Below the pieces are notes generated by a model. The model did not search any database. It saw only the letters and a list, made by a program, of their open reading frames with translations, and was not told the origin of the DNA. The position numbers and the translations under genes were made by a program. DNA of 64,000 bases from contig CAJQUW010008687.1 in NCBI GenBank assembly GCA_907163375.1, positions 153,754 to 217,753 of the forward strand, written 5' to 3'. Shown here in pieces: positions 690 to 44,780 of this stretch. The stretch's first letter is position 1. The number at the start of each line of letters is the position of its first letter. The stretch comes from Prostheceraeus crozeri. Lineage: Eukaryota; Platyhelminthes; Polycladida; Euryleptidae.

Positions 690-1443
690 ATTTTGCGGTT
701 TTGAGTAGTAAGGACATCCCAAAAGGAAGTGCAAAATGTAGAACGATGAGTCATCATGCTGACTCAGCCCCCCTCTGGAAGGAAGAACGGAGAGGGTCAA
801 GGATGTGTTGGGAGGAATGGGTCCGAGAGGAGGAAACTGGTCCCTACTCCCCCCCCTCGGCAGCGATCTTCCAACTTTGGTTCTAGAGATCGTAGAAAGT
901 CGTGCAATAGCTCATTTGAAAGCTAAGAGTGAGAAAAATGCAGTGGAAAGCTCAGTTTGGTCCTATTTTCCTGGGTTGAGAGAGGAAAATGGCAGGAAAA
1001 CGTCAGAGTTAGAAAAGTCAGGTTTTGGATGTTTTGGGATGAGAAAAGTCGTTTTTCGACATGAAGAAGTGCTCGGATGGGAAAACGGAGTGCAAATTCG
1101 GACGTTTTGGTCAAGTTTGGGTCTGGGAGCTTGTTTCCAGCTCAATCGGAGAGAAAAAGTTCTGACCTCCCCCCTCTGGAACGAGACTTCCAACTTTTTG
1201 TTCTAGAGATCGTAGAAAGTCGTGCAATAGCTCGTTTGAAAGCTATTGGTGAGACAAATTCAGTGGAAGACACGGCTTGTTCATGTCAGCCTTCGTCTAG
1301 ATGTGAGACGCCATTGAAAATTTTGGAAATTGGCGAAAAAACGACAGAGTTAGAATTTTTACGAAAATGGCTCTAGCGGGTGAACGAAGCCTCGGAGGGG
1401 AAAACAGAGACCAAATTTGGAATCAGCGTGACATTTTACACCT
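690..1443 (+). repeat. Left copy of an inverted repeat pair: one satellite dimer
   Basis: This segment is the reverse complement, with divergence, of the sequence that makes up 19006-44780. It holds two related halves, each built around a TCTAGAGATCGTAGAAAGTCG core (near 880 and 1203). Its outer edge (CGATGAGTCAT at 744) matches the rightmost edge of the big array (reverse complement near 44710). Its inner edge (GGAATCAGCGTGACATT at about 1420) matches the left edge of the array near 19010. Having the same inner and outer limits in opposite orientation is what terminal inverted repeats look like. Here the unit is present once; on the right it is amplified. The G tract next to the CCAGAG string is only 6 long here, against 7-13 in the array. 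Exact ends and a target duplication could not be fixed. Confidence 0.75.
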
Positions 1444-1499
1444 GAATGTCATTCATGCTATGTCTCGGAAGTGATAGGAAGAAAGATGACAGATGTAGT

Positions 1500-1888
1500 A
1501 GAGTTTACGAATGAATTTTGTTCACTACGTTTTCATCGACAAAGTCTTCGTGGTGTGATTAGGTCGTGAAAAGGCAGACTTAGAATTTGCTATCGCTAAA
1601 GGTTGCTACGTTTTCCAACAGCTCATGGACAGCTTGATGAATAAAGATGTGAAAGGTCGATTAGTTGCAGAGAATGAATTTGAGAAAGTGACTGATGAAC
1701 ATGCAGGTGAACGTGTAGTGTTTCATTTTGCATCATATTCTGCAGAGACGATGCATGATCCAAAAGATTTCTATCAGCGACACATGGTGAAAATTGCATC
1801 TCGACTAGATTCATTGCAAGAGCATGGATCCAACTTGCTCTTATGTCGCATAAAACACATTCATATTCAACTCAATGTGCTAAACTAG
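1500..1888 (+). pseudogene. Unrecognised ~120-residue family, copy 1 (frameshifted)
   Basis: One of three related genes, with copies at about 4097 and 15311. The N-terminal part around 1500-1557 contains a LRFHRQSLRGVI string matching IRFHRESFGGLI of the 15.3 kb copy, then runs into a stop. A single-base shift near 1560 restores the family sequence, which continues to 1888. Shared blocks are KGRLVA (residues about 60-66 of the family), a F-x-Y-x-RH-x-x-KI-x-x-R signature (here FYQRHMVKIASR), and a basic-hydrophobic C-terminus (KHIHIQLNVLN). No membrane segment, signal peptide or known motif was seen. It sits just inside the left inverted repeat. Function is unknown. Confidence 0.5.
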
Positions 1889-1919
1889 ATTTGACTACAA
1901 GATTTGGGAAAAGCAGTGA

Positions 1920-2034
1920 TGAGTCAGTCGTTCGCGCGCCTCCTTTTCCCTGCCGCAACGAAGTCAGGGGAGAAACGGAGGTATCTGATTGGCTCTCATA
2001 GTGTCAAATGTGGATTCGCAGGAGACTATAAAAG
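1920..2034 (+). promoter_or_regulatory. Promoter: AP-1 site, inverted CCAAT, TATA box
   Basis: TGAGTCA lies at 1920-1926, ATTGG (inverted CCAAT) at 1988-1992 and TATAAAAG at 2027-2034, followed by a pyrimidine-rich start region. A GTGAGTGTC donor-like sequence at 2151-2159 and an acceptor-like TTCTTTCGTTACAG ending at 2504 suggest a leader intron between this promoter and the 2510 gene. The same order of elements recurs upstream of the other genes of the element. Confidence 0.55.
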
Positions 2035-2161
2035 CAGACGTCTCCCCATTTTCTCTTCATTTCATTCTCTTGACTTGGAAAGCGTGTGTGACTTGCTCAA
2101 GCCATTCTCCCCTCTCAACTTTGTCTGATCAATCCTGTTTGCAAATTTACAAGTGAGTGTC

Positions 2162-2386
2162 ATGACTGTGTGGCCTAAACCTTACCAACATTTTGGAAGA
2201 GAGACGCAGGAGAGTGTGTGGCCGATGATTGTACAAGCTTATTTTGTTGAACCATCACCACCTCCACCACCTAGACGCTTTACCTTTACGTCTTTTAGGG
2301 AATTGAAACTTAATTCGGGTCCTAAGCCCAAGACATTTAATTTACTAGACGATGACGAAGACTTCGACTTTGGTGATAAGCTTTAA
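2162..2386 (+). CDS. Small protein with proline run and acidic tail, unrecognised
   Basis: A 74-residue frame from the first ATG at 2162. It has a central proline run (EPSPPPPPRR) and a strongly acidic, aromatic tail (LLDDDEDFDFGDKL). Acidic-aromatic tails of this kind are found on some phage and viral single-strand DNA-binding proteins, where they recruit partners; that is only an analogy. The frame starts 9 bases after a possible splice donor, so it may be the unspliced alternative of the transcript that otherwise joins to the 2510 gene. A histone-type stem-loop follows 20 bases after the stop. It could be a chance frame, but the composition argues for a real short protein. Confidence 0.35.
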   Translation: MTVWPKPYQHFGRETQESVWPMIVQAYFVEPSPPPPPRRFTFTSFRELKLNSGPKPKTFNLLDDDEDFDFGDKL

Positions 2387-2406
2387 ATCATGTGAAGGCC
2401 CCAAAA

Positions 2407-2425
2407 GGTCCTCTTAAGGGCCACC
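2407..2425 (+). promoter_or_regulatory. Histone-type 3' stem-loop candidate
   Basis: The bases GGTCCT-CTTA-AGGGCC-ACC form a six-base-pair stem (one G-T pair), a four-base loop and a 3' ACC flank, preceded by CCAAAA. This closely follows the metazoan replication-dependent histone mRNA 3' element (GG-pyrimidine stem, four-base loop, ACCA). It lies about 20 bases after the stop of the 2162 frame. No clear histone downstream element was seen after it. Confidence 0.4.
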
Positions 2426-2509
2426 TCATATGTCACTGCTAAGCTAAGGATTTTCTTTTCTCTGATGATCATGAATGTACTTAGTGGTATTCTTTCGTTA
2501 CAGACTGCC

Positions 2510-3181
2510 ATGGCCATGAATCCTACTCCAACTGCTGCATCACTCAATCCTCAAAATCTCGAGTTGTGGAATCCGAAAATTGAAAAGGTAATTCACGGCT
2601 ATCCTACCTACAAACAACAAGTGCGCTACAGCGGTGTTCGACTCTATCTTCAAACGCCGGCGGTATACTTACCAAAAGTGGATACGCTAGTAAATCGTTG
2701 CGGTCAAAACCTGAGTATCCCTATTGATAATTGGTTGCGTCAGGAGCTTGACATTTTAGAAGACGTTGTGAGGCAAAAGGCTCTTATTCCTACTGAACTA
2801 TTACAGTTGTGGCCAGAAAAGAAAACTTGTTATTATAAACCATTGTATCGCGGCACTCGCTGCTATATTTTGCAAAGCAAGTATTGTAAAGTCACTTCTG
2901 GAGTGACAGTTGAAACAGAATTGTCATCGCTAGGTGCAGGCTTTTATTCATTTCATATTGAGGTGCCTGCTGTTTATGTGGGACCTCATCAATCTGACGG
3001 TAATTTGATTTCTCTCAATTTGCGCATTGCTCAAATTCATCATCAACCTGAGTTAACAGGACTTGATCACATTGAGAAAGTCATTGATTCTTGTGTCAAA
3101 GAGTGTCAAGAACCTGTCACCAAACCTAAACGTCGTCGCGCATCAAAGAAAGGTGGTGTTACCACCAAAGAGAAATCTTAA
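2510..3181 (+). CDS. Unrecognised ~220-residue family, intact copy
   Basis: The only fully open member of a family also present at 5015-5582 and perhaps 5741. I chose the ATG at 2510, just after an acceptor-like TTCTTTCGTTACAG; an in-frame ATG at 2465 is also possible. Shared blocks with the 5 kb copy are a V-x-x-x-TP string followed by a conserved IPIDNW / VPLDYW block about 80 residues in. Further on comes GAGFYSFHIEVPAVYVGP matching GKGFYTFEIKIQTIYMDP, then a G-x-x-I/F-I-S/T-LN strand. The C-terminus carries a lysine/arginine cluster (KPKRRRASKK), a likely nuclear localisation signal. The all-beta look plus the acidic protein next door makes a DNA-binding (OB-fold-like) role possible, but I do not recognise the family. 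Confidence 0.6.
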   Translation: MAMNPTPTAASLNPQNLELWNPKIEKVIHGYPTYKQQVRYSGVRLYLQTPAVYLPKVDTLVNRCGQNLSIPIDNWLRQELDILEDVVRQKALIPTELLQLWPEKKTCYYKPLYRGTRCYILQSKYCKVTSGVTVETELSSLGAGFYSFHIEVPAVYVGPHQSDGNLISLNLRIAQIHHQPELTGLDHIEKVIDSCVKECQEPVTKPKRRRASKKGGVTTKEKS

Positions 3182-3182
3182 G

Positions 3183-3923
3183 TATTGTAATCAGTTAGTA
3201 TGTAGTGAATGTGGAAAACGCGGTCTTGCGCGTTATGTTCAATTAAAACATTGTAATCATGTTGTATGTATATTTTGTTATGTAAAGGACAGACATCCTT
3301 GTAAAGTTCCTGCTCAATGTATTATATTTTAATGAAGTCTTTTTGATATTGTAGGTTGTCATCTTCATAGACAGTGAGGGAGCACCCATGCAGGAATTGA
3401 GTGCTATTGCAATGAGAGAAAGTGATCAAACTGTTGCTAGTGTATATCATAGATTTCTGTCCTCTACTGTCCTCCACACAAAGACGGATGGTCACGGCGT
3501 CATGTGCATGGACTTGATCCTTCTATTTTGATTCATATTGGATTTGTAAATGAAACGTATTTGATAAGTGATTTCAAACGGTGGCTGTCAGGTTTTTATA
3601 TTGTTGAAATATTAGGAAATGATTCTGAACGAGAAGCATCAACACTTCAGTTGCACATTGATAATTTATAATTACCATGTTGGGTAGATCGTGTAAGACA
3701 AGACTATCATATGCATTGTGATCAAAAGAAGTTTAGAGATGAAATGATTTTTGATATGGCTGTATGTTTCGGTGAGAGCCATCACCTTTACAGACCACCA
3801 TCCCATTGTAATACTTGAAATAAAGCCACCTACATTGCAAAACTCTCTTCAAGCTGGCATTGTAGTCTCTATGACGTTTATGAACTGTATCTATATTATT
3901 GTCAACAGCATGGGTCAATGTAA
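3183..3923 (+). pseudogene. Zinc finger plus DEDD-exonuclease-like gene, broken
   Basis: The first ~50 codons (to 3332) encode a compact Cys/His cluster: CSECGKRGL, then KHCNHVVCIFCY, a RING- or B-box-like C-x2-C...C-x2-H-x2-C-x2-C arrangement. After a stop, the frame from 3355 begins VVIFIDSEGAPMQELSAIAM, where D-x-E in a hydrophobic strand looks like the exonuclease I motif of DEDD nucleases. A frameshift near 3470 is followed by WSRRHVHGLD and FVNETYLISDFKRWL. In-frame stops occur near 3670 (TAA) and 3817 (TGA), before a conserved-looking end, HCSLYDVYELYLYY. I recall similar zinc finger/exonuclease proteins in animal genomes but cannot give a name. A role in DNA processing for the element is inference. 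Confidence 0.5.
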
Positions 3924-4003
3924 AACATGTTTTTACTCGTTGTGAATGAGTGATGATCATTTTGTGAAGTGTATTCTGTACTTGTAAATTTTGACTGATG
4001 TTG

Positions 4004-4009
4004 AATAAA
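4004..4009 (+). terminator. Poly(A) signal AATAAA
   Basis: AATAAA 80 bases after the end of the exonuclease-like gene, followed by a T-rich stretch near 4030-4045. It suits the 3' end of that transcript. Confidence 0.35.
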
Positions 4010-4096
4010 CTTACAGTGGAACATGATTGTTATTTCTGTTTTATTCATAGTGGAAGTCATTGAAGCAATGTGAAATCTATAGTCACAGCGTTTATG

Positions 4097-4490
4097 ATGG
4101 CGCATCGTACACTAAGTAACCACATGTGTCATTTGACACTTGATCAACAGGGATTCGATGGATTTTTACAAGATTGGAATATTACATTTAAAATGAAGAT
4201 GAATGATATGAAAGTAGTGCTAACTGAAAGCCTTCCTCTCTTCAAAAGATTGATAGAGAGTTTACAACCTCAAGATGTAAAGGGTAGACTCGTTGCTTAT
4301 ATAGAGTTGAAAGATGTGCAAAAACCACTTCGTTTTGGATCTTATTGCACAGAATGGATTACTCTTGGTGATCAATTTTATGTACGTCATATGGAGAAAA
4401 TTATGGAGAGAATAGAAGACGATGGAAGGAAATGCGGACGTTGTTAAACATATCATGATTCAAGTGTGTTTACATCCACGACTTTGTTTG
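4097..4490 (+). pseudogene. Unrecognised ~120-residue family, copy 2 (C-terminal frameshift)
   Basis: The start is taken at the MAHRT methionine (4097) because the 15.3 kb copy also begins MAPEV. The frame is open to 4447. Family blocks are GFDGFLQDW (matching SFGGLIQDY), DVKGRLVAYIEL and FYVRHMEKIMERI. The last ~12 codons of the open frame do not match. A shift near 4428 gives a VVKHIMIQV string that matches the C-terminus of the other copies, so the end is frameshifted. AATAAA follows at 4515. Function is unknown; the protein is small, soluble-looking and moderately basic. Confidence 0.55.
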
Positions 4491-4514
4491 ATGGTCGACA
4501 TGTTGTGTAGATGC

Positions 4515-4520
4515 AATAAA
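4515..4520 (+). terminator. Poly(A) signal AATAAA
   Basis: AATAAA with a T-rich region right after it (GATTTCTTTTC), about 70 bases past the open frame ending at 4447. Confidence 0.4.
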
Positions 4521-4558
4521 GATTTCTTTTCACTGAGTATTTTGTAATGGTGTATAGA

Positions 4559-4806
4559 GCAACATGAGTCATTGCGCTTTGTCAGATAAATGAATGCGTC
4601 TTTGTTCGCTAGAAGGGGCGTGTCACAAAATGAGTCATTGCGCTTTTTGCATTACTATCGGGCTCTTTGTTAGATAAATGAATGCGTCTTTGTTCGAGAA
4701 AAGGGGCATGTCACAACATGAGTCATTGCGCTTTGTGCATTACTATCAGGCTCTTTGTTAGATAAATGAATGCGTCTTTGTTCGCTAGAAGGGGCGTGTC
4801 ACTAAA
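4559..4806 (+). repeat. Three tandem copies of an AP-1-site module
   Basis: Three copies of a unit that begins with ATGAGTCATTGCGCTTT and ends with ATGAATGCGTCTTTGTTCG plus GGGGCGTGTCAC. The first copy is shorter; the second and third also carry a GCATTACTATC insert. TGAGTCA sits at 4565, 4631 and 4719. Position upstream of the promoter at 4885-4970 suggests an enhancer array. Confidence 0.85.
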
Positions 4807-4884
4807 GTCTTTGTGAGGACTAGAACGACTTTGTAAGAGGGCAGTCAGTCATAGGGAAGGTTTCCACCCACGCAGTCAAAAGTT

Positions 4885-4970
4885 CACGTGTGATAACTCT
4901 TTGTCACGTAACAAAGACGGAAAACATGAAAAGGGAAACGCGTGTGATTGGAGCTAGGTCTGATTATAAA
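4885..4970 (+). promoter_or_regulatory. Promoter: E-box, inverted CCAAT, TATA
   Basis: CACGTG at 4885-4890, ATTGG at 4947-4951 and TATAAAG at 4965-4971. It resembles the promoter at 1920-2034 and probably drives the gene at 5015. Because the TATA box lies at 4965, the ATG codons at or before 4948 are unlikely to be used. Confidence 0.55.
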
Positions 4971-5014
4971 GCGGACGACTGAGCTCATGGCAATCATTTA
5001 CGTCCTTGCGCTAA

Positions 5015-5582
5015 CCATGCAGTTGCTCGAAGCCATCAACTCCTCTGCTCTCGCACTGGGTACACTGAACTCCCTTACTTTAGCATCGGGTAAAAATGCT
5101 TTCAATCAAAAGATAACTCATCATGGAGCAGTCGTGACCATAAAAACTCCAAGTCATCGGATGGCTTATCTAAAGGTCATGTCAACAAAGTATGGACTCG
5201 CCGTGTGTGTACCGTTAGACTATTGGACACGGTTACAATTCAATACTCTTGAAACATTCCTGAAAGAAATCTCACTATTCCGAAAGAAATTGTTCGACAC
5301 AATGGGAAGCGGCCACAAGTTCCCATCATGGAAAGACGATACATGTATGTGCATATGGATAGACACTGTCTCATCATCCATGAAAAGGAGGGCAGCGAAT
5401 TCGACTTACTCAATTGCAAACCTCTCCCCATTTTGGGAAAAGGATTCTACACCTTCGAAATTAAAATTCAAACCATCTACATGGATCCGCGCAGGGACGG
5501 AAGGTTCATTACGTTGAATCCCTATCTTGTCTCCATAACCTTTAAAAATGATGTCCATGTTGATGATGATCAACTACAGTAA
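5015..5582 (+). pseudogene. Unrecognised ~220-residue family, second copy (frameshift)
   Basis: A paralogue of the 2510 gene. The start is set at the ATG of MQLLEAIN (5015), downstream of the TATA box. The frame is open until about 5290. The family match then continues one frame over, through MERRYMYVHMD and GKGFYTFEIKIQTIYMDP, to the stop at 5580-5582. The conserved IP-x-x-W block appears here as VPLDYWTRLQ. Unlike the first copy it lacks the basic C-terminal cluster and ends with acidic residues (DVHVDDDQLQ), recalling the acidic tail encoded at 2162-2386. A single frameshift suggests recent loss. Function is not recognised. Confidence 0.55.
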
Positions 5583-5608
5583 CACTCTCCACACACACTG
5601 AGAACGCA

Positions 5609-5660
5609 CCATCGGTCTTTATGAGACCAAGGCCTGACGGCCACCGTATCAAGAAATAAA
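5609..5660 (+). terminator. Stem-loops and poly(A) signal at gene end
   Basis: GGTCT-TTATG-AGACC, then GGCC-TGAC-GGCC-ACC, then ATCAAGAAATAAA (AATAAA at 5655). The second hairpin with its ACC flank and nearby CAAGAAA recalls histone 3' ends but is weaker than the one at 2407. The AATAAA could work as an ordinary poly(A) signal. Confidence 0.35.
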
Positions 5661-5740
5661 ATGTGCACTCACCATGCCACACATGAACATGACTCTCTCC
5701 TTCTTTCTTAGGCATACCATTCTTCACTCAGGTTTGAATC

Positions 5741-6256
5741 ATGTGGAAATTATCAGCATGCCTCTATGTATCATGGAAAAGTCAGTGTGTTACATTTCAT
5801 GATGCGAAACGTCAATTTCAGATAAATCTAGAATGCTTTCAACTACGAAGGTTACATCGCGCTATCCTATCCAACTCTTGCCGTGTAATTAATGTAGGAG
5901 ACGGCATTGTATTTATTCACATTCAAGAGATGATTCTACATAATGATCACTGCTACATCGTGATTCCAAAACCCTCATGGGAAAAGTATAAAAGGGAAGT
6001 TCACTCAACCCTCATGTCATTTGTGAATCATGCTCCCCATCCGCATCATCAACACCATGCGCGAAATGAATCTCAGAAGAGACATCGATTTAGACCAGTT
6101 GCATACCCATCTTCCCGATTCAGTATATCATCGCGGTCGTCCACAAATGTTGGTCATTCGCATGAGCAACGGTCGAAATCTTCAAATCTTTCGCTGCGGC
6201 AAAATCCAAGTCCTAGGAAACCTTTCTCATTTCGTGATGCAGTCGATGTGTTATGA
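5741..6256 (+). CDS. Unrecognised frame, possible third member of the ~220-residue family
   Basis: A frame of 171 codons from ATG at 5741, preceded by an acceptor-like TCCTTCTTTCTTAG at about 5699-5712. Only the part up to about 6030 looks protein-like. A VGDGIVFIHIQEMILHN string aligns loosely with the GAGFYSFHIEVPAVYVGP block of the 2510 gene. A YIVIPKPSWEKY string may correspond to the family's IP-x-x-W block. Beyond 6030 the frame overlaps the TBP-like gene in another frame, and its His/Ser/Arg-rich composition looks like read-through of non-coding frame. So this may be a remnant about 97 codons long. Confidence 0.35.
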   Translation: MWKLSACLYVSWKSQCVTFHDAKRQFQINLECFQLRRLHRAILSNSCRVINVGDGIVFIHIQEMILHNDHCYIVIPKPSWEKYKREVHSTLMSFVNHAPHPHHQHHARNESQKRHRFRPVAYPSSRFSISSRSSTNVGHSHEQRSKSSNLSLRQNPSPRKPFSFRDAVDVL

Positions 6257-6567
6257 AGTCGTCAAGAAAATGCGAGCACTCATGCCTCATCTACGCCTCA
6301 GTCCCCTGACATTGAAGAATATAGTAGTGTCTGTTCAATTGAAGATGTTAGTGAATCTAGCAAACATTAAAACCAGTAATCATTGTATATTATATGAAAC
6401 TGAACTCTCCTGCTGCTCTGATTCGGAAGTGGCATCCTGTACATATTGCAGTGTTTCACAACGGACATTGTATCATGACTGGTTTACGTGATATCAGTAA
6501 AGTAGCTGACATTGTTAAATCTTTAATGCGTTATCTGTATGAGTCACAGTTAATAGAATCGTGTTAA
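6030..6567 (+). pseudogene. TATA-binding-protein-like gene with one frameshift
   Basis: Two halves resemble the two pseudo-repeats of the TBP core. Half 1 (6030 to about 6360) starts PIRIINTMREMNL and has LVIRM...LQIFRCGKIQVLG, matching the VIMRI...ALIFSSGK-x-x-x-TG strand pair of TBP, then the helix and a L-x-x-LTLKNIVVSV stretch. Half 2 lies in another frame (about 6361-6567) and has NSPAALIRKW and IAVFHNGHCIMTG, matching the F-P-x-LIYR and LIF-x-SGK-x-x-LTG pattern, then a helix. The frameshift lies between about 6355 and 6395. The start at 6030 lies right at the core, so there is no N-terminal extension. TBP-like proteins bind promoter DNA and nucleate transcription; large DNA viruses sometimes encode them. 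Many core residues differ from cellular TBP, so it is a distant homologue. No database check was possible. Confidence 0.6.
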
Positions 6568-6608
6568 TCACATGATGCGTTTTGAATAAGTCATCGCAAT
6601 GAACTATC

Positions 6609-6800
6609 GCCCACACACGTGTCGGTGAAAAGGTCATCAACAAGGTTCATCGCTTTATGATGAGTCAGCGCTATTTATAGACGTGAAATGATGCCCACAC
6701 ACGTGTCGGTGAAAAGGTTGAACAAGACTGATTAGATTCTTATCTAACTGACTGGTGCTTTACCACTTCATGAGTCAGAGCTATTTATAGACATGAGTCA
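6609..6800 (+). promoter_or_regulatory. Tandemly duplicated promoter: E-box, AP-1 site, TATTTATA
   Basis: Two copies of one module. Each has CCCACACACGTGTCGGTG (CACGTG at 6616 and 6700), then TGAGTCA (6661 and 6771) exactly 11 bases before TATTTATA (6672 and 6782). The second copy has a further TGAGTCA at 6794. The spacing is identical in both copies although the sequence between E-box and AP-1 site differs in length. Downstream there is only a 33-codon frame at 6793-6894, so the target gene is unclear. TATTTATA reads TATAAATA on the other strand, so direction is uncertain. Confidence 0.55.
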
Positions 6801-6879
6801 GCAAAGTGGTTGTTGTTTCCTAAGCCGAAGAAATTGTCGTGATGTTACATTCGTTTATGAGGATGATAACTTACAAACT

Positions 6880-7190
6880 CTAGCATGGTTTTGAGTTTAT
6901 TTTATACTTTACCTATCTTGCAAACTCTGAAATGATTCTAGCATTAATTCAAACTTTACAATCATCAACTTTATTTCAAACTTTACAAACGTAAACTTTA
7001 TTTCTAATTTTACAAACAGTGAAGTGATTCTGACTTCACTTATATTTCACCTATCTTACAAACAGCGACATAGTTATAACTTTGTTTCTAACTTCACAAC
7101 CATCAACTTTATTTCTAACTTTACAGTGAAATGATTCTGACTTCATTTATATTTCACCTATCTTACAAACAGCGACATGGCTACAACTTT
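6880..7190 (+). repeat. AT-rich imperfect tandem repeats
   Basis: A ~109 bp unit containing GATTCTGACTTCA and TTATATTTCACCTATCTTAC plus CAAACAGCGACAT occurs at about 7018 and 7127. It is embedded in shorter repeats of AACTTTATTTC and TTTACAAAC. No gene was recognised. Confidence 0.75.
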
Positions 7191-7273
7191 ATTACCAAGT
7201 CAGTCCCACCTATCTGACCCGCAACTTTATGTCAAAAGAAAAACGAGACAGTCTGTACATGATAAGTTATTGA

Positions 7274-7465
7274 ATGAAAGACATTTCATCACAGTCACAC
7301 ATAGTTAATACTATACACGGAGAAAACAAAGTCACTCATGTGCAGGGAGAGAACAAAGTCACTGATGTGCAGGGAGAAAACAAAGTCACTGATGTGTCGG
7401 AAACTGTACTGGGACAAAACAAAGTAAGCAAAAGCACTGGATACCCCATCGATGATATGCTGTGA
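7274..7465 (+). repeat. 27-bp tandem repeat inside a short open frame
   Basis: Three 27-bp copies starting at about 7319, 7346 and 7373 keep one reading frame and encode a GENKVTDVQ-type nonapeptide. The frame (63 codons) is open from an ATG at 7274. Period 27 preserves the frame, as expected for a coding repeat, but there is no other support, so I list it as a repeat. 7466-7639 shows nothing recognisable. Confidence 0.45.
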
Positions 7466-7639
7466 TCAGGAGTTGGACTCATGTTACAAGGCACTCATTC
7501 ACAACACCCCATGGAAAACGTCATGGAGTGAAAAAGCAAAACATCAACCACAACAGAAAGGAAGCATTCATCATCATACATCGCCGGACGGAGGAAGAGA
7601 AAGTTTCTGTCTCTTGGGTGGAGGTAGATGAGTGTCTGG

Positions 7640-10600
7640 ATGGCCGTACGGTAATGAGTGGTTAGGACTCATCCAGCATCGCTTGTCTTCCCAAGCTGAG
7701 AGACCTCATTTCCTAAACGTCATTGTTCTGACTTGATGCGACTGTGGTTTTAAAATGGTCATTTCTACTTTTTTAATCTTAAATGAATCTAGGGCATCTT
7801 GATAGTCCTTATGTGTCATTTTTCTATCGATTGACTTCGAGATGCCTTTTGCCCGTTTTATAGAAAGCTCTGAGGATTTTAGCTTCATGGAGTACATCTT
7901 GGGGCGAAGCAAGATCATCTCCTCTATCTGTTTGCCGGCACACTCATCTTTGAAGCAGCCAAGCTTCGCTTTATTTGTGGTAGAGTAAAGCGGATGGTTA
8001 GTGGGATAGTTGGAACTATCAAACTTGGGTGCTAAATATTTTAAAATGTCTTCCTGCTTGACTTGGCTAGTGGTTGTCAAAGCTAGGAAGAAGCTGTCTG
8101 TATCACCTACTAATTCCACATGTTGGATCAATGGACAAGTTTTAAAGGTGTGGTAAAACAACTTGTACATTTCTAACTTTGAGTGATCCAAGACAGCTTG
8201 ACCGACATAAATGGGCTTGCGAAGGTCTACTTTGGATTTTGACATTTTGAAACCAGTGATGTCTTCGGAAATGACATAATGGTGACAAAACAGCGGTGAG
8301 CGGCATAACTTGATACTCGTTTCCGGATCAGTCACGATACGATAGTCCATGCGCTTTCTTACATCCTCCATGGTTTACCAAAGGGGGCATTATTCTTAAA
8401 TTTAAAGAAGTCCTTTTCGAAAGGATTCTTGGATTCAGCCCGTTACTGTTAAATTCTATATACGGTTTTAGAAAGGGCTTCTGCCTAAACTGGATAGCGC
8501 GATGGATTTTGTCAAGTTGCATCCCCATACATAGATAGAATTTGAGGATGGAATAGTGCACGATGTGATGCTGCTTGTTCAATTGGGTGAGCAACAACTT
8601 CCTAGTGGGTTTATAGTTTAAGTCTTTTTCCGCCTCATATTGCTTATTGTGTTCTTCCATAAAGGGAGAGAACATATCTGGACTGACTATGCCAGATTCG
8701 GGTGCGTGAGGAAAATCAACTGTTCTATTCTTAATACATTCTGGATAGATGAGGTCGACTTCAAATAAATAACCTATGTCGGACTTATCTCCCAGTGCCA
8801 TGATGTGTGCTGGATTGGAGAAGTGTTCAATGTCATGGGGCTCTACCCATTGGAAGTCAGATTGTGGCAAAGGCTTGGATAATGCACTCCCATATAAATT
8901 ATTTTGGTCTATTTACATTAAATGCGTGGTCGATCCTATGTCTTGGCTGCTGTTGACAACATGTTTGTTGACAAATGTTAAGCCACCCCTAATACCACGT
9001 TCAAATAACGTGTACATTTCTGCATCTTGCAGTAAATGTACGCTGTCTTTCGTCATCTTGAAGGCTGACTGATAGGACAGACCCGGTAGACTAACAAAAT
9101 GGACGGGGTCTAAGGCGTCTTGTTCTAATGTGACTTTCCTAAAAGTCTCAAACACGTCAGCTAACAGATAGACGTCTAATTTTAAGTAGGCAAGCATGTA
9201 GTCACCAAAAGTGCGACACCTAAATTCTAACCATGCTTGCTCTGCATGCCTATAGTCATCCGGCGAACAGTCCTCACCCGTCAAATCAATTTTAAATTTA
9301 TCGATGGACGGAAGGGATGTATCCTTCAATGTGTCCATTGAACTAAAATAACTATAAGGAAACACCCCTTTCCATCGCATGAGACTGTCACTTATGTTGG
9401 GATAGTCTTTCTTTAAATGTTGAGTGAGGGGAAGTGTTTCTAAATTATTAGCCAACGCGGCTAAGGAAGAAGACATAAATTGAAAACTATCTCGAAACTT
9501 TATGTCATAGAAGACAGGCTTTCCTTCCTTCGTCTTATCGACTTGGACTTTAGCAGTGATGCACATAAATTTTTCCTTACTTTGTGCAATCACTTCGGAT
9601 GACCAGGATTTCATTTTACCGTATCCATGGCGAATGATGATGTGAGCATCATAACATTTAAAGTTATGGAAGATGACGGAGAGCGTTCGCCGTTAGAGCT
9701 CAAGTTTCATGTTACATTTACTGCATAAGGCAGACCTAAATTTACCATCGAGATGGCAATGGTCCCTCACTTTCTTATGTTGCTGATCATCAAAGGATGA
9801 ACAGCAGCGGGGACATTCCGTGGTCCTATCAAATTAAAAATTATCGGCTTCTGTGAAGCACATGGGTTTCCTAGTCAGCTCCGTTTCATAGCGTTGATGA
9901 AAACGGACTTTCCTATCTAAAAAGTTGAGGAAGTTTTCAACGCACTCCTCGCCTTGCCACACATGCATTTTATTTTGATTCCTATAATATGGATGCCAAA
10001 CTTCATAGCAGGCAATGGCTGCTGGCTCATGACTTAGGTCTTCTTGTTCAATGTAACATTCAATGTCCGCATAGATGGTACATATGGGACTGAGCTCATT
10101 GCCGTTTTCCTCATATCTATAAAATTTATCTTTGGGCATGACTTCCATTTGAAGTTTACCCCGAGAGCACCACTCGTAATGCTGTTAAAAAAATGCTTTG
10201 GATGTGAAACGCCGTGTGCAGCGATCACAGTAATAATGTTTGTCATCATAACTTTGTTAGTGGCGATACAACTTTGATATTTTAGGAATGCCACAATAAT
10301 ACCATTCTGGGTGGTTGTCGCTATATACTAGGAGAAGATTGACAACCCGCTCGAAGTTAATTTGGCAATTATTATACCGAATGCCCTTCAGACCTTTTTC
10401 CCAGAGATGGACGACGATCTTAATTTCATTCAATTTTTCAAATTGGGCGATGCCTTTAAAATCTAGTGTGTTGACATCTAATCCATCAAGCTTAAGCTCA
10501 TCCTCCCATTCACGATATTTAGTGACTCTTTGACGATGCATATCTATATCATTATAGTGAAGAATGGAGAGGACGGCATACTTGAAACACTGGGACTGAC

Positions 10601-10897
10601 AATCTACATTGATGACAGCCTTTTTGTCAGCCAGTGCTTTGGGAGGGTGAAACAACCGCTCCTTTACAAATTTTCTAAAAGATTGATTTTAATGTCTACT
10701 TTCTCTATCCCATGAAGAACCAGTCCGCTGTCTCTTTCATTAAATTTATTTAAGTTGCTGACGAGATAGATCGCATCTCTCTCTATCCACTCGTTTACAT
10801 CACCTATGAGATCAGCAGCACAGGAGGCTATCCTAATGGTCACAGTGGACTCTACTTTTCCCGTGCTACTGTCTACCTTATTGAAACGAGCAGTCCC
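7640..10897 (-). pseudogene. Protein-primed family B DNA polymerase with endonuclease VII-like module
   Basis: Read leftwards from about 10897. The N-terminal block has the WIERDAIYLVSNLNKFNER and CFKYAVLSILH strings typical of large invertebrate polymerases of this kind. A Cys2-His-Cys finger (YYCDRC...H-x3-C) lies near 10210. Exo I is YADIECY (near 10070). A recombination endonuclease VII-like zinc module has CPRC and VRDHCHLDGKFRSA (near 9780). Exo II is FHNFKCYDAH and Exo III is YLKLDVYLLADVF (near 9170). Polymerase motifs are IDQNNLYGSAL (near 8890), KFKNNAPFGK (near 8400) and GDTDSF (near 8090). The C-terminal NHSLPYGH-like end lies near 7645. Damage comprises in-frame TAA codons at 10257, 10185, 9834, 9693 and 8913, frameshifts near 10670, 8440 and 8385, and a TGA near 7706. 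Such polymerases copy linear genomes from a terminal protein, as in Polinton/Maverick and related viruses. Confidence 0.9.
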
Positions 10898-11680
10898 GAG
10901 TGATCATTTTCTAGAGATTTTACGATTTTCTACTGCCTTTCAAAATCGCTACAGATATTTGATTTGGCAGTAAACGTTTTATGGTTTTTAGAGACATTTG
11001 TATGAGCTGATAATGCCTACTGCCATTCTAGAGAATTCTTACTGGCATTCATGGCATCCATAGAATGTTTAGCAGGCAAATATATCTGTAAATGTTTGCT
11101 GGAGACACGTGTCTCTAAACATTTATCGACGACAGACATAACCTCTACAAGAACGTTGAACTCAAACATTTTTGTATAATACAGCAGTTCTTTTGCTGTA
11201 ATATACAAAAGAAAGATATTTGTATATAAATCTCGTATTGTTACCATCTAATGTATTCATAGGAATATATACATGTAATACAATTTTACACGCAATTACA
11301 AAATTCTATCTTATCAAATATATTGTTATGTTTATATATTTGATATATTGATATTATGTCTACATCACATTTAATACTTATTATATTAAGCATCACATGA
11401 ATAAATGAATGTGATGTGTAAATGTGCATGTATTATATTCATTTATTACTTGCTTTACACCTGTGAAAAGAACATTTGGTTTTATACATGCGTCCCTTCT
11501 CTTGCTACTTTGTCTCCTCTAAATGATTCGCTTTTGATGGAGTGTCACAATGCACGAGGCACAGAACTAAGTCCTTCTAGTCTCTTCTTATCTCTCTTTC
11601 TCCGGAAACTCCGGAGTCTCCTCGAACTGTTTGTTTTTGATCGGGGCCATAGTGCGCGAAGCACAGGGGAAGAAGCTTCC
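10898..11680. other. AT-rich intergenic stretch with CACGTG palindrome
   Basis: A perfect 14-bp palindrome GAGACACGTGTCTC lies at 11102-11115 with an E-box core. Short GGCAGTA/TACTGCC motifs recur (10926, 10970, 11027) and appear again at 13068-13130. A 76-codon minus frame at 11017-11247 crosses the palindrome and has no recognisable features. It may contain the promoter of the polymerase gene, but no clear TATA/donor module is visible. Confidence 0.5.
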
Positions 11681-11733
11681 TCTTTTTTTTCTCTCTCTCT
11701 CTCACACACACACACACTCTCTCTCTCCTTATC
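11681..11733. repeat. (TC)n/(CA)n compound microsatellite
   Basis: TCTTTTTTTT, then a CT run, a CACA run and another CT run. Frames crossing it are simple-repeat artefacts. Confidence 0.95.
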
Positions 11734-12315
11734 TCCATCTCTCCATTCATCTTCTTTTATTTTATTTTCTCCATTTGAAAGCTGATTTTCTGATTTTGAA
11801 TGTATCTCAGTTGGAATATTCAAGGTCACAATGCGGATCAGTTGTTCCCCTATTTGCAAGACTATGATGACTAAAGGACGTAATGTATGTACCGGTATCC
11901 GTCACAATTTTCCTCTACACACATCTCTCTCCCTACTGTGGAATGAACAACTCGTCGATCGCCTGCCTGTTGACTAATGAATTCCATCATAACGACCTTC
12001 GGTCCATGAGTTGAGTCACACGACAAAGAGGATGCGAGCGGACAGACTGTGTATGCTATATCAACCAGGCGTCATCAATTGCAGAGTCATTCCTCTCAGT
12101 GCATCGTGCATGTTTCAGTCATCCCAGCAGCGTCAATGCATGTCGTTCTACTGTCTTATACTTGTGGATTTACAAAACTTTTAACTACGCCTCAAGTCAG
12201 TCATTTGTGCTTTGGACATTCAGAGGATTCTGTCGTAATTCGACTTTCACAACCAATTTCAGGATTACGCCGACGCATTTTTTCACTATGGAAATATTTT
12301 CACTATCGATCTTCT
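11734..12315. other. No supported gene
   Basis: Frames at 12049-12371 have no recognisable protein features. One TGAGTCA is at 12012. The stretch runs into the long inverted repeat at 12316. Confidence 0.5.
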
Positions 12316-12595
12316 ATTTTCCTGGCATTGTACTAAAACCAAGCGGGTCACTCCTTTGTATTTGCCTTTGAAGTTATGCACAAGATAGAAATCAATAAGG
12401 TAAAACCACAGCGCTTCGTGTCACAGACACATCAAGGGGTGGAACCTTGCAGTGCGAATGTTTACTGCACGGTCCCACCTGACACTAGAAGCGCTGTGGT
12501 GTTACCTTGCTGGATTTCTATCTTGCACATAACCTCAAATAAAAGGCAAATACAAACGAGAGACCAGCTTGTTTTTAGCACAATGCCAGGAAAAT
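12316..12595. repeat. 280-bp foldback (long hairpin) repeat
   Basis: The left end ATTTTCCTGGCATTGT pairs with the right end ACAATGCCAGGAAAAT. The arms continue inward through TTTGTATTTGCCTTT, AAGATAGAAATC and ACCACAGCGCTTC and their complements. Even the centre (GTGGAACCTTGCAGT against ACTGCACGGTCCCAC) is partly self-complementary. The arms are about 110 bp with scattered mismatches and small indels. The transcript would fold into one long hairpin. It could be a foldback transposon, a small-RNA precursor or a structural element of the surrounding unit. Confidence 0.9.
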
Positions 12596-13050
12596 TGAAC
12601 TACCTCCTGTTCCTAACCTTCAACATCATTTTCATCTACACGTTTTGATTCGCATCATTCTGACTCAACTACCTAATACTTTTCACTTTCACTGAAAACC
12701 ATTAAACAAGTGATTGATTATATTGCTGAAAAGTCATTTGAAGTGAAATTATATTGTAATCAAATATTCGATCCACACACAGCTACAGTCGAACAAATAC
12801 AAGTTGAATAATACAAGTTGAATCTCTGAAGGAAGATTGGAGAAAATGGAAAATATAATGTGAGTTTTATTATTATTTTTAGGTACTGTTCAATACCTCA
12901 AATTCGGTAGTTTTGAATCCTGGTGGATGATTTAATGTATCCACGGGACTTAAAAATTACGCTTGCTTGAGGTTCGATCGGCATTTATATTATTCCTAAT
13001 TAATCGCAAAATATCGTGAAAATTGTTGCTTGTCTGAATGCGTTTATAAA
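12596..13050. other. No supported gene
   Basis: AT-rich. No recognisable gene, RNA or repeat beyond short A/T runs. Confidence 0.5.
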
Positions 13051-13137
13051 TTGATGTCTGTAGGCCTTTTTGGCAGTAGACGATTGATGTCTGCAGGTAT
13101 TTTTGGCAGTAGAAAATTAGTGCTTTTTGCAGTAGAC
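13051..13137. repeat. Short tandem repeat with TTTTGGCAGTAGA motif
   Basis: TTGATGTCTGYAGG...TTTTTGGCAGTAGA is repeated at 13051 and 13084, with a third partial copy ending at 13137. The same motif occurs near 10970 and, inverted, at 10926 and 11027. Confidence 0.7.
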
Positions 13138-13175
13138 AATGCGCGATAATTCTACTGCGAAATTTTATGGGATTT

Positions 13176-14660
13176 TCATAGAAAATGATCACTAGGGGTG
13201 AGATAGAACATGCCTTTGAGCAAAAATCTATCTAAGCTCGTCAACATTTGATGAATTAAACCTATATTATTCATCAAGAAAGGATGAATATCTTGTACAG
13301 GTTCAGAGCTTTCTAACTCATAGTCGCGAACGAGCCTCTCAAGGGAAAACTTGCTCAGCCTTAGAGTGACGTTGTCAGTGTAAAGCTCAGTGGAATGTGT
13401 GTGACAGAGTGTGTGCGAAGAAAAAACAAACTCTGTAGGAAAGGTCTTCCGACACGAAGAACAGGAAAAGCCGACGTGTGATGAAGGATGCTTCCTACCT
13501 GTTGTTGTCGGTGGTTGCCTCACACTGCCACAGGAACCGCCTTCGATGTGGACTCGCAAGTTGGTGCTGTTGTAGAACGTGCGTCCACAACCTTCACACT
13601 TGGGTCTTTGAGGGATGGTCGGCGCTTTCCTCCTCTGCAGGCATTGCTAGCGGTGTGACGTCTCAAACTGTAGGCTCAGGCGAAGACCGTCACACCGCTG
13701 GCATCGAAAGTCCTTTTCCTCTTCGACTTCAATCTCCCTCTCCTCTCCGACTATCTCCAACTCCTGTTCCTCCAGCAATCTCTCCACCGACTGAACGGGG
13801 AGGAGAGGGAGTTCGGCCGCTGCGGCAGGTGGAGGTGGCGATGCTGGGATGACGATGGAGCGAGAGGGAACGTCACCGTCCAGGAGGTAGGCCGCCAGAT
13901 CTGTTGAGAAAAAGAGAAAAGAGATTAGTAACATGATCATAATTTCAAGTTTGAAGTCTTATCCCCCTATTTCCCAATCACGGTTACTTACCATCTAATG
14001 AATTGATTTCCGGCAACACCGATGGACGCGGAGGAGGCAGGAGTGGGATGCGAGCCGAAGGTGGAAGGGTCCTTGGCTTCGGTGTTGGAGGGACGTGGTG
14101 ACGAGGAGCAGGAACTGGTGCAGGGAGCGCAGCAGGCGGTGGAGGTGGGGCGATGACAATGCCCGAGAAAGGGGTCGAACTTTGATCGGAGGTAGATGGG
14201 CGGGAAGGTAGGGCCGGAAATTCAGCATTGAATCTCCGCCTCGCAGCTTCTTCCCACTTCTTCATCTTTGCCATATCTGTAGAGAGGAAAGAGAGATTAG
14301 ATAATGAGACAAGGATGATGCAGAGGATCTGAAACAGTCTAAACATGAGATGTTAAAGATACTTACACTTGCTAAACCGCTCATAGGCTTCGCCAATTGT
14401 TCCTTGGGGGACGGGTTCCCCATTACGAATACATTCATGCACTGAAAAAGAATGGCAGCAAAGATAAGTAGAGGTAAAATTTGGATTCGGTTTCAACATG
14501 AACAAAATAAGGGAGGGGCTCTTGATTTTAATTAGGATGTCTACCCTAATGATGTTAGTAATAGAGCGTATCAACCTTGATGCAAATACTTACATTGCTC
14601 GATGTTGACCTTCTCCATCTCAGCAGCAATGCGGTAATTTTCAAGTTTGTTGAATTCCAT
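13176..14660 (-). CDS. Spliced gene: proline-rich protein with Cys2-His2-type zinc fingers
   Basis: Four coding exons with clean GT-AG junctions and matching phase: 14660-14594, 14441-14367, 14276-13992 and 13900 onward. Donors read GTAAGTATTT, GTAAGTATCT and GTAAGTAACC; acceptors end in TTCTTTTTCAG, CCTCTCTACAG and TTTTTCTCAACAG. The protein begins MEFNKLENYRIAAEM. A long proline-rich middle (PPPPPAALPAPVPAPR) is followed by a glutamate-rich stretch and finger-like clusters FRCQRC, CEGCGRTFYNSTNLRVH and CSSCRKTFPTEF...H-x4-H. An in-frame TAG at 13647-13649 would end it at 226 residues, but the same frame stays open to 13176 and contains the last two fingers. So it is either a fresh nonsense mutation or readthrough. 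A nucleic-acid-binding role is likely; the exact family is not recognised. Confidence 0.65.
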
Positions 14661-14713
14661 TTTCTTGTTAGGATGTAGTTGATTAATTGAATCACTGAAA
14701 AATTACTTCAATC

Positions 14714-15213
14714 ACTGAAAAGGAAAGATGAGAATCGTTTCATTTGCCTAGTCAACGTTTATCATGGGAACAATTATTGAAGTGACATCTAATGAACTAC
14801 ATTTCACTCTACTCCATGTCATTAAGACTAACCTTTGTCGAATGGCTGAAGTACTACGACCTGGCGAGAGAAAGCGTCACGTTGAGTATGAAGTCGAACG
14901 CCCAACATGAGCAACGGCTCAGAGGTTTTGGTCTAACAAACGACGAACAACCCGTGCAACGCAATCCCTCTACGGCAGTACCCGCCGTCCCGAAGGAACG
15001 CTCGAGCAAAGGAGGTATTACAGCGATGATATGTTTTATGAGCAGAAGATGTGATAGCAAGAGACTATTCAACTTGATAGCAAGTCAAAACAACCTGATA
15101 GCAGGAGCTCACCGACACTCACCTTGTGAAAGATAAATGTGAAGAGCAGAGCTGGTGCACTGCCTTTTATAAGATTTTCCTAAGCGGTAAATGGATGAGA
15201 CCTCTCGTCCAAT
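14714..15213 (-). promoter_or_regulatory. Promoter, non-coding exon 1 and leader intron of the 13-14.7 kb gene
   Basis: On the minus strand an ATTGG (plus CCAAT at 15209-15213) precedes TATAAAAG (plus 15164-15171). A short exon follows, ending CTTTCACAAG at 15123 with the donor GTGAGTG. The intron ends at CTTTCCTTTTCAG (15-base acceptor, exon from 14714) or a second acceptor with exon from 14694. The ATG lies at 14660. The intron carries CTTGCTATCAA-type motifs (plus GATAGCAAG at about 15055, 15075 and 15098). Confidence 0.6.
14908..15030. repeat. Intron module shared with 18298-18420
   Basis: Blocks CCAACATGAG, GTTTYGGTCTAA, CCGCCGTCCCGAAGGAAC and TATTACAGC occur in the same order here and at 18298-18420, with different spacing. 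It lies in the leader intron of the 13-14.7 kb gene. Confidence 0.6.
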
Positions 15214-15310
15214 CACAGACGAGCTAGAGTTCCCGATGTGCGCACACACACTTGTAACGCGTTATTGAAATCGTCGTAGGCAAAAATGATGTTTAGCAAT
15301 AGACTCAACC

Positions 15311-15763
15311 ATGGCACCTGAAGTCAATACATTGAAACATGATGATTACGAGATTCGTTTTCATCGAGAGAGCTTCGGAGGCTTAATACAAGATTACATC
15401 CATGAGTTTCAAAGGGAGTAGACAGAATTGGAAGCATGTCTAGACTACACACGAGAGATATTTACGGAGTTGATATCTTATTTCAAAGACAGTCTCATCA
15501 AGGTTATCTTAATTGCACATGTCAATTACACTCATTTTCCACAAGGTGAAGCAGTGGAAAGTGTTGACTTTCAATTTCGTTCCTACGGACAAGAATATGT
15601 TCCTGATGCTTCTGCGTTTTATACACGACATCTGCAGAAGATTATTTCTCGGATGGACAACTTTCATGGTTACGGCGATCATTTGCTTCTGAATAAAATA
15701 AACCATATTGTCATTGCAATAAGTAAAGTGGGTTTCAATGATGTTAAATCAAAGACCAAATGA
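15311..15763 (+). pseudogene. Unrecognised ~120-residue family, copy 3 (one in-frame TAG)
   Basis: The longest copy of the family: 150 codons from MAPEV to the stop, interrupted only by a TAG at 15419-15421 after codon 36 (FQRE-stop-TELE). Shared blocks are IRFHRESFGGLIQDY, a F-x-x-YGQEY region, FYTRHLQKIISRMD and NKINHIVIAISKV. The promoter region is probably shared with the divergent gene whose TATA box is at 15164, because only about 140 bases separate them. If the TAG is read through, or if translation starts at 15428, a protein of 111 residues or more remains possible. Function is unknown. Confidence 0.6.
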
Positions 15764-17390: not shown

Positions 17391-17400
17391 TGTAGAGAAT

Positions 17401-18930: not shown

Positions 18931-19059
18931 ATCCATCATCCAAACCTTTAAACACGTCTATCTCCGGTTCTAGTGCTCCGATTGACTTGAAACTCACCCT
19001 TTAGATGCAGAATGTCACGCTGATTCCAAATCTCTGTTTCCCCTCCGAGGCTTCGTTCA

Positions 19060-43000: not shown

Positions 43001-43500
43001 GAAGTCTCGTTCCAGAGGGGGGGGGGACGTCCTCAAAATTTTTTCTCTCCGATGTCGCTGGAAACATCCTTCCTAATCCAAAATTTCACTTAGATTCCGA
43101 ATCTGGCCTCCGTTTTTCCATCCGAACACTCCTTCATGTCGAAAAATGGACTTTCTCATCCCAAAACGACCAAAACCTGCCTTTTCTAACTCTGATGTTT
43201 GCTGCCATTTTCCTCTCTAAACCCTGGAAAATAGGACCAAACTGAGCTTTCCACTGCATTTTTCTCACTCTTAGCTTTCAAATGAGCTATCACACGACTT
43301 TCTACGATCTCTAGAACCAAAGTTGGAAGTCTCGTCCAGAGGGGGGGGGTCAGAACGTTTTCTCTCCGATTGAGCTGGAAACAAGTCCCCTAGACCCAAA
43401 ATTGGCCAAAAAGTCCAAATCCGCGGTCCATTTTCACGTGCGAGGCTTCGTTCACCCGCTACAGACATTTTCATAAAATTCTAACTCTGTCGTTTTTTCG
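19060..43500 (-). repeat. Satellite array: about 39 tandem copies of a ~642 bp dimer
   Basis: Anchors such as TTCACCCGCTACAGAC recur every 639-644 bases from about 19060 to 43450. Each unit has two diverged halves (about 320 bp) that share a ~100 bp block ending in CTCTAGAACCAAAGTTGGAAG, CTCGT(T)CCAGAG and a G run. The G run varies from 7 to 13 between units. Internal copies are nearly identical; sparse variants include CTGTGTCG/CTCTGTCG and TCCTCTAGA/TCCCCTAGA. Almost every unit carries one CACGTG at the dimer junction. Minus-strand frames of 61-96 codons repeat with the unit, but G-run length changes break them, so they are not taken as genes. Near identity with divergence at the edges is the pattern produced by unequal exchange. 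Confidence 0.95.
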
Positions 43501-44600
43501 CCAGTGTCCAAAATTTTCAATGGAGTCTCACATCTAAACAAAGGCAGATATGAACAAGACGTGTCTTTCACTGCATTTTTCTCACTCTTAGCTTTCAAAT
43601 GAGCTATCACACGACTTTCTACGATCTCTAGAACCAAAGTTGGAAGTCTCGTTCCAGAGGGGGGGGGGTCAGAACTTTTTCTCTCCGATTGAGGTGGAAA
43701 CAAGTCCCCTAGACCCAAAATTGGCCAAAAAGTCCAAATCCGCGGTCCATTTTTACGTGCGAGGCTTCGTTCACCCGCTACAGACATTTTCATAAAATTC
43801 TAACTCTGCCGTTTTTTGGGGATGGACAAAAATCTTAAAGTCACTCTCACATCTAAACGAAGGCTGACATGAACAAGCCGTTTCTTCCACTGAATTTGTC
43901 TCACTCTTAGCTTTCAAACGAGCTATTGCACGACTTTCTACGATCTCTAGAACCAAAGTTGGAAGATCGTTCCAGAGGGGGGAAAAAGTCCGAATTTGCC
44001 CTCCGTTTTCCCATCCGAGGCCCCTTTATGTCGAAAAATGGACTTTCTCATCCCAAAACACCCAAAACCTGCCTTTTCTAACTTGGACGTTTTCCTGCCA
44101 TTTTCCTCTCTAAATCCAGGAAAATAGGATCAAACTGAGCTTTCCACTGAATTTGTCTCACTCCTAGATTTCAAATGAGCTATCACACGACTTTCTACGA
44201 TCTCTAGAACCAAAGTTGGAAGTCTGACAGGAGGGGAGGGGGACGTCCTCAAAATTTTTTCTCCAATGTCGCTGGAAACAACCTTCCTAACCCAAAATTT
44301 CACGTAGATTCCGAATCTGGCCTCCGTTTTCCCATCCGAGCACTTCCTCATGCCGAAAAATGGATTTTCTCATCCCAAAACGACCAAAACCTGCCTTTTT
44401 CTAACTCTGCCGTTTTTAGAGATTCCACCCCTTGCCTCACAGGAAAACTCCTCCTTCCTAACCCAAAATTTCACGTAGACTCCGAATCTGAACTCCGTTT
44501 TCCCGTCCGAACCCTCCTTCATGCCGAATTCCAACCTTTCTCATCCCAAAACCACCAAAACCCACCTTTCTCACTCTATCCTTCCCACATACCCTTGCCG
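43500..44600 (-). repeat. Diverged edge copies of the satellite
   Basis: From about 43500 the units become irregular. Half-units appear at about 43560-43660, 43890-43990 and 44140-44240 with many substitutions and deletions, and the last one (44400-44600) is only partly recognisable. One block uses GACAGGAGGGG instead of the usual CTCGTCCAGAGGGG; the same variant occurs inside the array near 34335. Confidence 0.85.
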
Positions 44601-44780
44601 CCTTCCTTCCTAGATTCCTAACCTTGCCGCCCTTGCAGCTTCCTCCTCTCGGACCCATTCCTCCCAGCCCATCCTTGGCCATCTCCCTCACCTTCCTTCC
44701 AGAGGGGGATGACTCATCGTTGCACATTTTGGCCTTGATTTTGGGACGGGCTTACTGCTGTTTTGCCGCTGCACTTTGGT

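Follow-up and report, generated by a model that had tools for sequence, protein, structure and literature searches.

An element of 44,056 bp, which we assign from its sequence to the Polinton/Maverick type in decayed form, was found in a 64,000-nucleotide stretch of the Prostheceraeus crozeri genome (contig CAJQUW010008687.1, positions 153,754 to 217,753 of the forward strand). This whole stretch is referred to as the window, and positions are counted from its first letter. The two terminal inverted repeats (arms) of the element differed 34.7-fold in length, the left being 743 bp (704–1446) and the right 25,760 bp (19000–44759), in agreement with the roughly 35-fold difference claimed in an earlier note on this DNA. 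The right arm contained a satellite array of nearly identical dimers. We consider it probable that recombination between end variants of this Polinton-type family made a mosaic dimer, and that the right arm then grew by amplification of this dimer in place.

The limits of the element were set by local alignment of both ends with free limits, which began exactly at 704 (AGTAGTAAG) and 44759 (AGCAGTAAG). The earlier limits of 690 and 44780 were thus replaced by these exact ends. In BLASTN, 849–1446 matched 19593–19000 on the opposite strand, and 704–839 matched 44759–44636. The outer edges of the two arms were 84.0% identical over 125 aligned bases (Kimura two-parameter distance, K2P, 0.180), and the innermost dimer with the inner edge was 89.5% identical over 571 bases (K2P 0.113). 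The outer-edge match scored 70, compared with a shuffled mean of 10.75, and no shuffle out of 200 reached this score. Beyond the limits, no inverted similarity over that of shuffles was found between the flanks (reached by 170 of 200 shuffles) or between the interior sides (191 of 200). The alignments and shuffles therefore confirmed that the two segments have the same inner and outer edge sequences, inverted relative to each other, as had been proposed.

Directly outside both ends lay a perfect 6-bp target-site duplication, GTTTTG, in the same orientation (left copy 698–703, right copy 44760–44765). The earlier note had suggested that such a duplication be sought. Two 6-mers drawn at random from the window outside the array agreed at a frequency of 0.00039. 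The left end motif, AGTAGT, is of the Polinton/Maverick type, and the right one, AGCAGT, differs from it by one base. The element is thus the product of one insertion event with a 6-bp duplication.

The left arm consisted of an outer edge beginning with AGTAGTAAG (704–848, +), one A monomer and one truncated B monomer (849–1394, +), and an inner edge (1395–1446, +) in common with that of the right arm (19000–19045, −). Between the arms was an interior of 17,553 bp (1447–18999), with a layout as in relatives of the element.

The right arm contained 79 monomer starts at a spacing of 257–329 bp, or about 39 dimers, and the left arm contained two. In monomer equivalents, the arms measured 79.9 and 1.7, respectively. 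The left dimer was incomplete: its second monomer was broken off at the position where the last monomer of the right array also ends, both lying next to the shared inner edge. The predicted count of about 39 dimers on the right was therefore borne out, whereas the single dimer of about 640 bp predicted on the left proved to be partial.

Two monomer types, A and B, alternated in the array. In 75 monomers the two types were 68.5% alike, and the likeness within types was 99.8% for A and 99.1% for B. The amplified block (19046–43329, −) comprised about 38 dimers of about 642 bp. The 37 complete dimers that were measured (639–647 bp) had a mean identity of 99.5%, with a mean pairwise difference of 0.54% and a largest difference of 2.5%. 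Substitutions were present in 44 columns, of which 10 were common to at least two copies, and nine of the 37 dimers carried no substitution relative to the majority. At none of the 10 lags compared were neighboring dimers significantly closer to each other than distant ones (lowest count, 134 of 1000 permutations). A 33-mer specific to the array occurred in 37 exact copies in the window.

Outside the block lay two older B-type monomers, R01 and R02 (43330–43965, −), which were 13% and 8% different from the array B monomer over the first 205 bases (tree distances 0.155 and 0.097). They were followed by the right outer zone (43966–44759, −), which contained the outer edge beginning with AGCAGTAAG, partial units and an A monomer, R00, at a distance of 0.137 from the array A monomer. 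On the other hand, the tree distance between the innermost right B monomer and a far-end B monomer was zero (first 205 bases). The array therefore abuts the inner edge, and old units remain outside it.

Relatives of the element were searched for in the assembly (2.05 Gb, 14,165 contigs). With the left arm as the query, the best 40 of 5,528 candidates were scored, giving 84 matches. Twenty partner stretches were fetched in one round; 10 of them had no arm, and six of the 10 with matches gave pairs. Loci C3236 (truncated arm without an outer edge), C1023 (arm cut off where the stretch ended), and C10459 and C719 (arms in the same orientation) were left out. The fetched stretches extended 8–18 kb inward from each arm.

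Eleven other paired elements were measured. Their 22 arms were 650–2,426 bp long and were built of the same monomers of approximately 320 bp, the number of which ranged from 1.4 to 7.0 monomer equivalents per arm. In four arms (both of C12338 and the right arm in each of C7593 and C5059) the outer end was estimated by alignment and not from a motif. The length ratio of the two arms was 1.0–1.8 in ten pairs and 3.7 in C7709, compared with 34.7 in the window. An exact 6-bp duplication was present in seven of the 11 pairs, that of C5982 relying on the outer of two right ends. It was not found in C8609, C12338, C7593 or C5059, the last three of which lacked a recognized motif at one end at least.

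The occurrence of the same monomers in the arms of all these pairs indicated that the repeats belong to the inverted ends of the family. The fetched interiors and that of the window matched segment for segment, and in the parts covered the order was mostly conserved. Inverted dimers around the same interior had been expected at other loci, and the 11 further pairs supplied them. In searches with the left-side and right-side interior, the best 40 of 1,408 and of 4,610 candidates were scored, respectively; 39 in each case lay at other places, 90–95% and 91–94% alike. The family is therefore large.

Another clearly asymmetric copy was C7709:80489–97740, with arms of 2,426 and 651 bp and a duplication, TATATA, within a TA run. 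In C13669, C5982 and others, a right- or left-type interior was apparently present at both ends. Copies of this kind appear to be forms with longer inverted repeats or non-autonomous forms. The occurrence of the right-side interior in inverted pairs elsewhere had raised the idea that the window element is a chimera of two elements. This was withdrawn, as several relatives have a left-type interior at one end and a right-type interior at the other; only the end sequences look hybrid.

The origin of the amplified dimer was examined by comparison with 22 stretches of arm sequence, of which three came from the window and 19 from elsewhere. The 5′ part of the array A monomer was closest to C6712 (97.0%; the next was 95.0%). 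Its 3′ part was only 74–75% identical to the left arm and to C6712, and reached up to 94.5% identity with long-type outer units (92.2% with the window's own right outer zone). The 3′ part of the array B monomer was 97% identical to R01 and R02 and 95.8% identical to a C6712 unit bridging two dimers, the others being at 89% or below. The right outer zone and the arm of C5982, an ordinary one of the long type, were collinear for about 770 bp (82% identity). The simplest reading of this pattern would be that a C6712-like end and a long-type end of this family recombined and that the dimer so formed was then amplified. That the dimer is a mosaic with its closest matches in family ends supports in-place amplification after recombination of ends.

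The two ends of the window element also belonged to different lineages. In a tree of the outer edges, the left edge grouped with C6712 and the right edge elsewhere. The two outer edges of a pair were sisters in C13669, C8609, C5982, C7709 and C5318, but not in C10662 and C10285. Support in this tree was limited by its 137 columns, and one C10662 arm was shortened. For the inner dimers, the K2P to C6712 was 0.045 from the left arm and 0.113 from the right inner dimer, which was itself 0.126 from the left arm. The inner dimers thus gave the same grouping as the outer edges.

The inner dimers of the two window arms differed at 66 sites. Among 20 other arms (from 14 contigs, six of which gave two each), 15 or more had the state of the left dimer at 44 of these sites and that of the right dimer at seven; 15 sites were split. 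Twenty-six of the 44 right-derived sites sat in the 3′ part of monomer A, as one swapped block, and so the sites were not independent. As the two ends were not sister copies, recombination between end variants probably preceded the expansion.

We propose the following course of events. The 3′ part of the A monomer of a long-type outer unit would have been joined to a C6712-like A–B dimer by recombination between end variants. Within the right arm this mosaic dimer would then have multiplied in place, the likeliest route being unequal exchange or replication-based duplication among identical units, either as a recent burst or with continuing homogenization. The arms would have been left unequal because the copy was too decayed to restore equality by its own replication; presumably it no longer replicated, so that nothing kept the arms equal. 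The family ends vary in monomer number, the inner dimer has been amplified on one side, and the amplified unit is a mosaic. The idea in the earlier note of a satellite born inside a terminal repeat was thus supported with two qualifications. Monomers were already present in the ends of all 11 other pairs, the new part being one amplified mosaic dimer, and the two ends are not sister copies.

A separate array was found in a search of the assembly with the dimer, in which the best 38 of 5,865 candidates were scored. It spans about 8.2 kb (C9357:140613–148774; L064, L066 and L065) and was 77–86% identical to the window dimer in stretches longer than 150 bp. Its units of about 318 bp adjoined the family inner edge and right-end interior, and an outer edge was not found in the 1.0 kb examined beyond the array. 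It appears to be an independent expansion.

Several points weigh against in-place amplification in a Polinton-type element. The inner K2P between the window arms was 0.116, compared with 0.003–0.038 in nine of the 11 other pairs (the exceptions were C7709 at 0.160 and C7593 at 0.197, where the compared stretches seem to differ in unit make-up). The outer-edge tree, with its 137 columns, split the window arms, as it split two of the seven other pairs. Since the arms are not sisters, their divergence cannot date the insertion. Taking the 11–18% difference between the arms as an insertion age was therefore rejected, the difference being below 4% in nine of the 11 other pairs and 26 of the 44 sites falling in one block. 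C8609 carried both end motifs and yet no duplication. The monomers of the C9357 array were less homogeneous, with mean differences of 8–14% at lags 1–8 (12 monomers). The search with the dimer did not list the window's own array, which contains the query, and so it cannot show that near-identical arrays are absent elsewhere. Integrase and capsid genes were not found in this copy in the reading-frame pieces scanned (33 of 93). Finally, the length of the array depends on the assembly, and the order of recombination, amplification and insertion was inferred, not observed.

Among other explanations, the array could have been imported, a satellite with the same dimer, which might itself have come from these ends, having pre-existed elsewhere and entered by recombination or as a circle. 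A mosaic dimer far from the left arm would fit this, as would the 5,865 loose candidates for the dimer (38 scored) and the second array at C9357. However, the best long match outside the window was 91% (C6712) among the scored candidates, C9357 reached only 77–86%, and no source array was seen. This counterpoint is weak, since the search also missed the array of the window itself. Close matches to every part of the mosaic were present in family ends, some of them in the right arm itself, and we regard import as unlikely. Expansion before or during replication of the element, with the asymmetric 44-kb form inserted as such, is distinctly unlikely. The ends are of different lineages despite the perfect duplication, which suggests that hybrid ends may have existed at insertion. 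On the other hand, none of the 22 other measured arms exceeded 2,426 bp (the 8.2-kb array of C9357 lies outside the measured pairs). The array (0.54%) is also far more homogeneous than the left arm is with its nearest relative (K2P 0.045), which points to later growth.

Over-expansion or collapse of the array in the assembly was suggested by the 99.5% identity of the dimers, the nine of 37 without substitution and the 14,165 contigs. The 44 substituted columns and the scattered shared variants indicated many distinct copies, however, and both edges of the array were present, so that we hold an artefact of length to be very unlikely. Arm length is variable in the family, and the left arm might have shrunk from an ancestor with two long arrays. 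Yet its size and layout are those of other short arms, such as those of C8609 and C10459, and its nearest relative, C6712, is an end that carries two dimers; shrinkage is extremely unlikely. The loose candidate places for the left arm were numerous (5,528), as might be expected if independent satellite copies or an unrelated array had come to lie at 690–1443 and 19006–44780 by chance. An independent dispersed copy fails as an explanation because the inner and outer junctions are common to both arms, and chance neighborhood is further refuted by the terminal motif, the 6-bp duplication and the order of the interior as in relatives. Its probability is negligible. In-place amplification of a mosaic dimer remained the reading that we consider probable.

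The type of the element was examined through its interior genes. A gene for DNA polymerase B (PolB) of the protein-primed type was located at 7706–10688 (−), with five in-frame TAA stops and one frame change. It matched Pfam DNA_pol_B_2 (E 6.5e-8) and, in tblastn, the PolB of L001, an IMG/VR contig (E 3.9e-116). L001 was the one viral-contig relative confirmed among 36 stretches, and it also codes for an rve integrase and an A32-type ATPase. Of its eight proteins, the polymerase alone had a convincing partner in the interior. The integrase, the ATPase and a 477-residue protein, a putative capsid by its size that had no Pfam match, gave no tblastn match there.

No integrase, protease, capsid or packaging ATPase was detected among the 33 pieces scanned with Pfam out of 93 reading-frame pieces (at least 60 residues, positions 1–19100; some scanned pieces were trimmed to a start codon). 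The PolB match, the 6-bp duplication and the inverted repeats starting from AGTAGT (one base off on the right) are Polinton/Maverick traits. The sequence evidence thus points to a decayed element of this type. Because of the decay we do not claim a complete Polinton.

All five PolB stops being TAA, a variant genetic code was considered. It was dropped; a nearby frame of the long interspersed nuclear element (LINE) type also ends in TAA, and the natural homologue P0098 reads through the one stop position that it covers. Searches of phages with PolB, of the PDB with a PolB piece and of plasmids with the left arm gave no result, and neither did searches of viral contigs, in which the query was either a single PolB piece or a 37-mer of the monomer. 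Nine loci with PolB relatives (L002–L010) lay on contigs filed as prokaryotic metagenome-assembled genomes, possibly through eukaryotic or viral contamination.

Vertebrate Mavericks, as described in the accessible part of one report, have (AGT)2 ends, 6-bp duplications and intact inverted repeats of 46–1,447 bp (PMC8097293). The end motif, duplication length and inverted repeats given in the accessible parts of PMC8097293 and PMC8969392 agree with the window element. The likeness extends to the 6-bp duplication, (AGT)2-type ends, long inverted repeats and a DNA_pol_B_2 polymerase. The window copy differs in its 25.8-kb arm, in arms made of tandem monomers, and in that integrase, ATPase, protease and capsid were not found in the pieces scanned.

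The nearest precedent is Tetris of Drosophila virilis. In the accessible text of that report, units of the inverted ends (TIR-220) expand to satellite arrays, which reach up to 66 copies and are the more homogeneous the longer they are, and the unit number differs between alleles (PMC4079207). Tandem units in inverted ends, varying in number between copies, are found in the window family as well, and the low divergence of the array (0.54%) relative to the outer units (8–13%) matches the long-array trait of Tetris. Tetris, on the other hand, is described there as foldback-like, with 220-bp units, and as having no transposase-encoding element found (PMC4079207). The window has a virus-like element with PolB, 320-bp monomers in 642-bp mosaic dimers, and one element with a duplication and extreme one-sided expansion.

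In Galileo of Drosophila willistoni, the accessible part of the report states that internal tandem repeats lengthen the inverted ends, the longest copy having ends of 4,246 and 4,680 bp (PMC4168063). It differs, by the same account, in belonging to the P superfamily, in its small asymmetry and in its repeats of about 140 bp. Satellites have been linked to Polintons by homology in CgiSat52 (PMC8268682) and LmiSat34-299, the latter a locust satellite with homology to Polinton coding sequence (PMC4935994), and satellite arrays lie beside Polinton-like sequence in Triatoma infestans (PMC5983683). The accessible parts of these three reports describe homology or adjacency and no expansion inside an inverted end. 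In searches of the open-access literature, none of the titles, abstract openings and passages among the matches listed describes the growth of a satellite within the inverted end of a Polinton.

Satellites from transposon ends are thus already known; new here are the Polinton setting, the scale, the asymmetry and the traceable mosaic founder. Monomer numbers in this one genome formed a graded series of about 2, 3–5, 7, about 25 (estimated from length, in C9357) and about 80. It is possible, at odds a little below even, that a high-copy Polinton family acts as a standing satellite nursery, with seeded ends, recombination between subfamilies, and repeated independent amplification of units. Satellite origins are usually reconstructed after the source has decayed. 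In this case the source, junctions, insertion scar, ordinary relatives and product are all still visible, and the parts of the founder unit lead back to end types that were identified. Intermediates are also present in the genome, so that seed repeats, recombination, amplification and loss of outer ends can be compared across loci and individuals.

The interior also carried a nested 2.3-kb insertion (10895–13197) with 19-bp inverted ends matching at 18 of 19 positions, CCC[GT]AGTGATCATTTTCTA. The interiors of seven relatives ran continuously from 10894 to 13198 without it (the alignments of C7709 and C10662 were viewed). The insertion holds a 288-bp imperfect palindrome at 12312–12599. A piece at 6030–6491 (+) contained a TATA-binding-protein domain (Pfam PF00352, E 1.8e-12); its PDB matches to TATA-binding proteins were weak (best E 0.0014). 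Two gene families of no named type were also present, one in three diverged copies (1559–1888, 4064–4447 and 15422–15763, +) and the other in two (2396–3181 and 4948–5582, +). The piece at 2465–3181 had one protein match, P0139, which was 92% identical over 78% of the length.

Adjoining the element was the LINE-type frame mentioned above (45963–49034, −; 1,023 residues), with an RVT_1 match (E 2.4e-28) and a closest protein found of 58% identity. Farther along, a tRNA-Thr (GGT) gene or tRNA-derived repeat was located at 52885–52963 (−).

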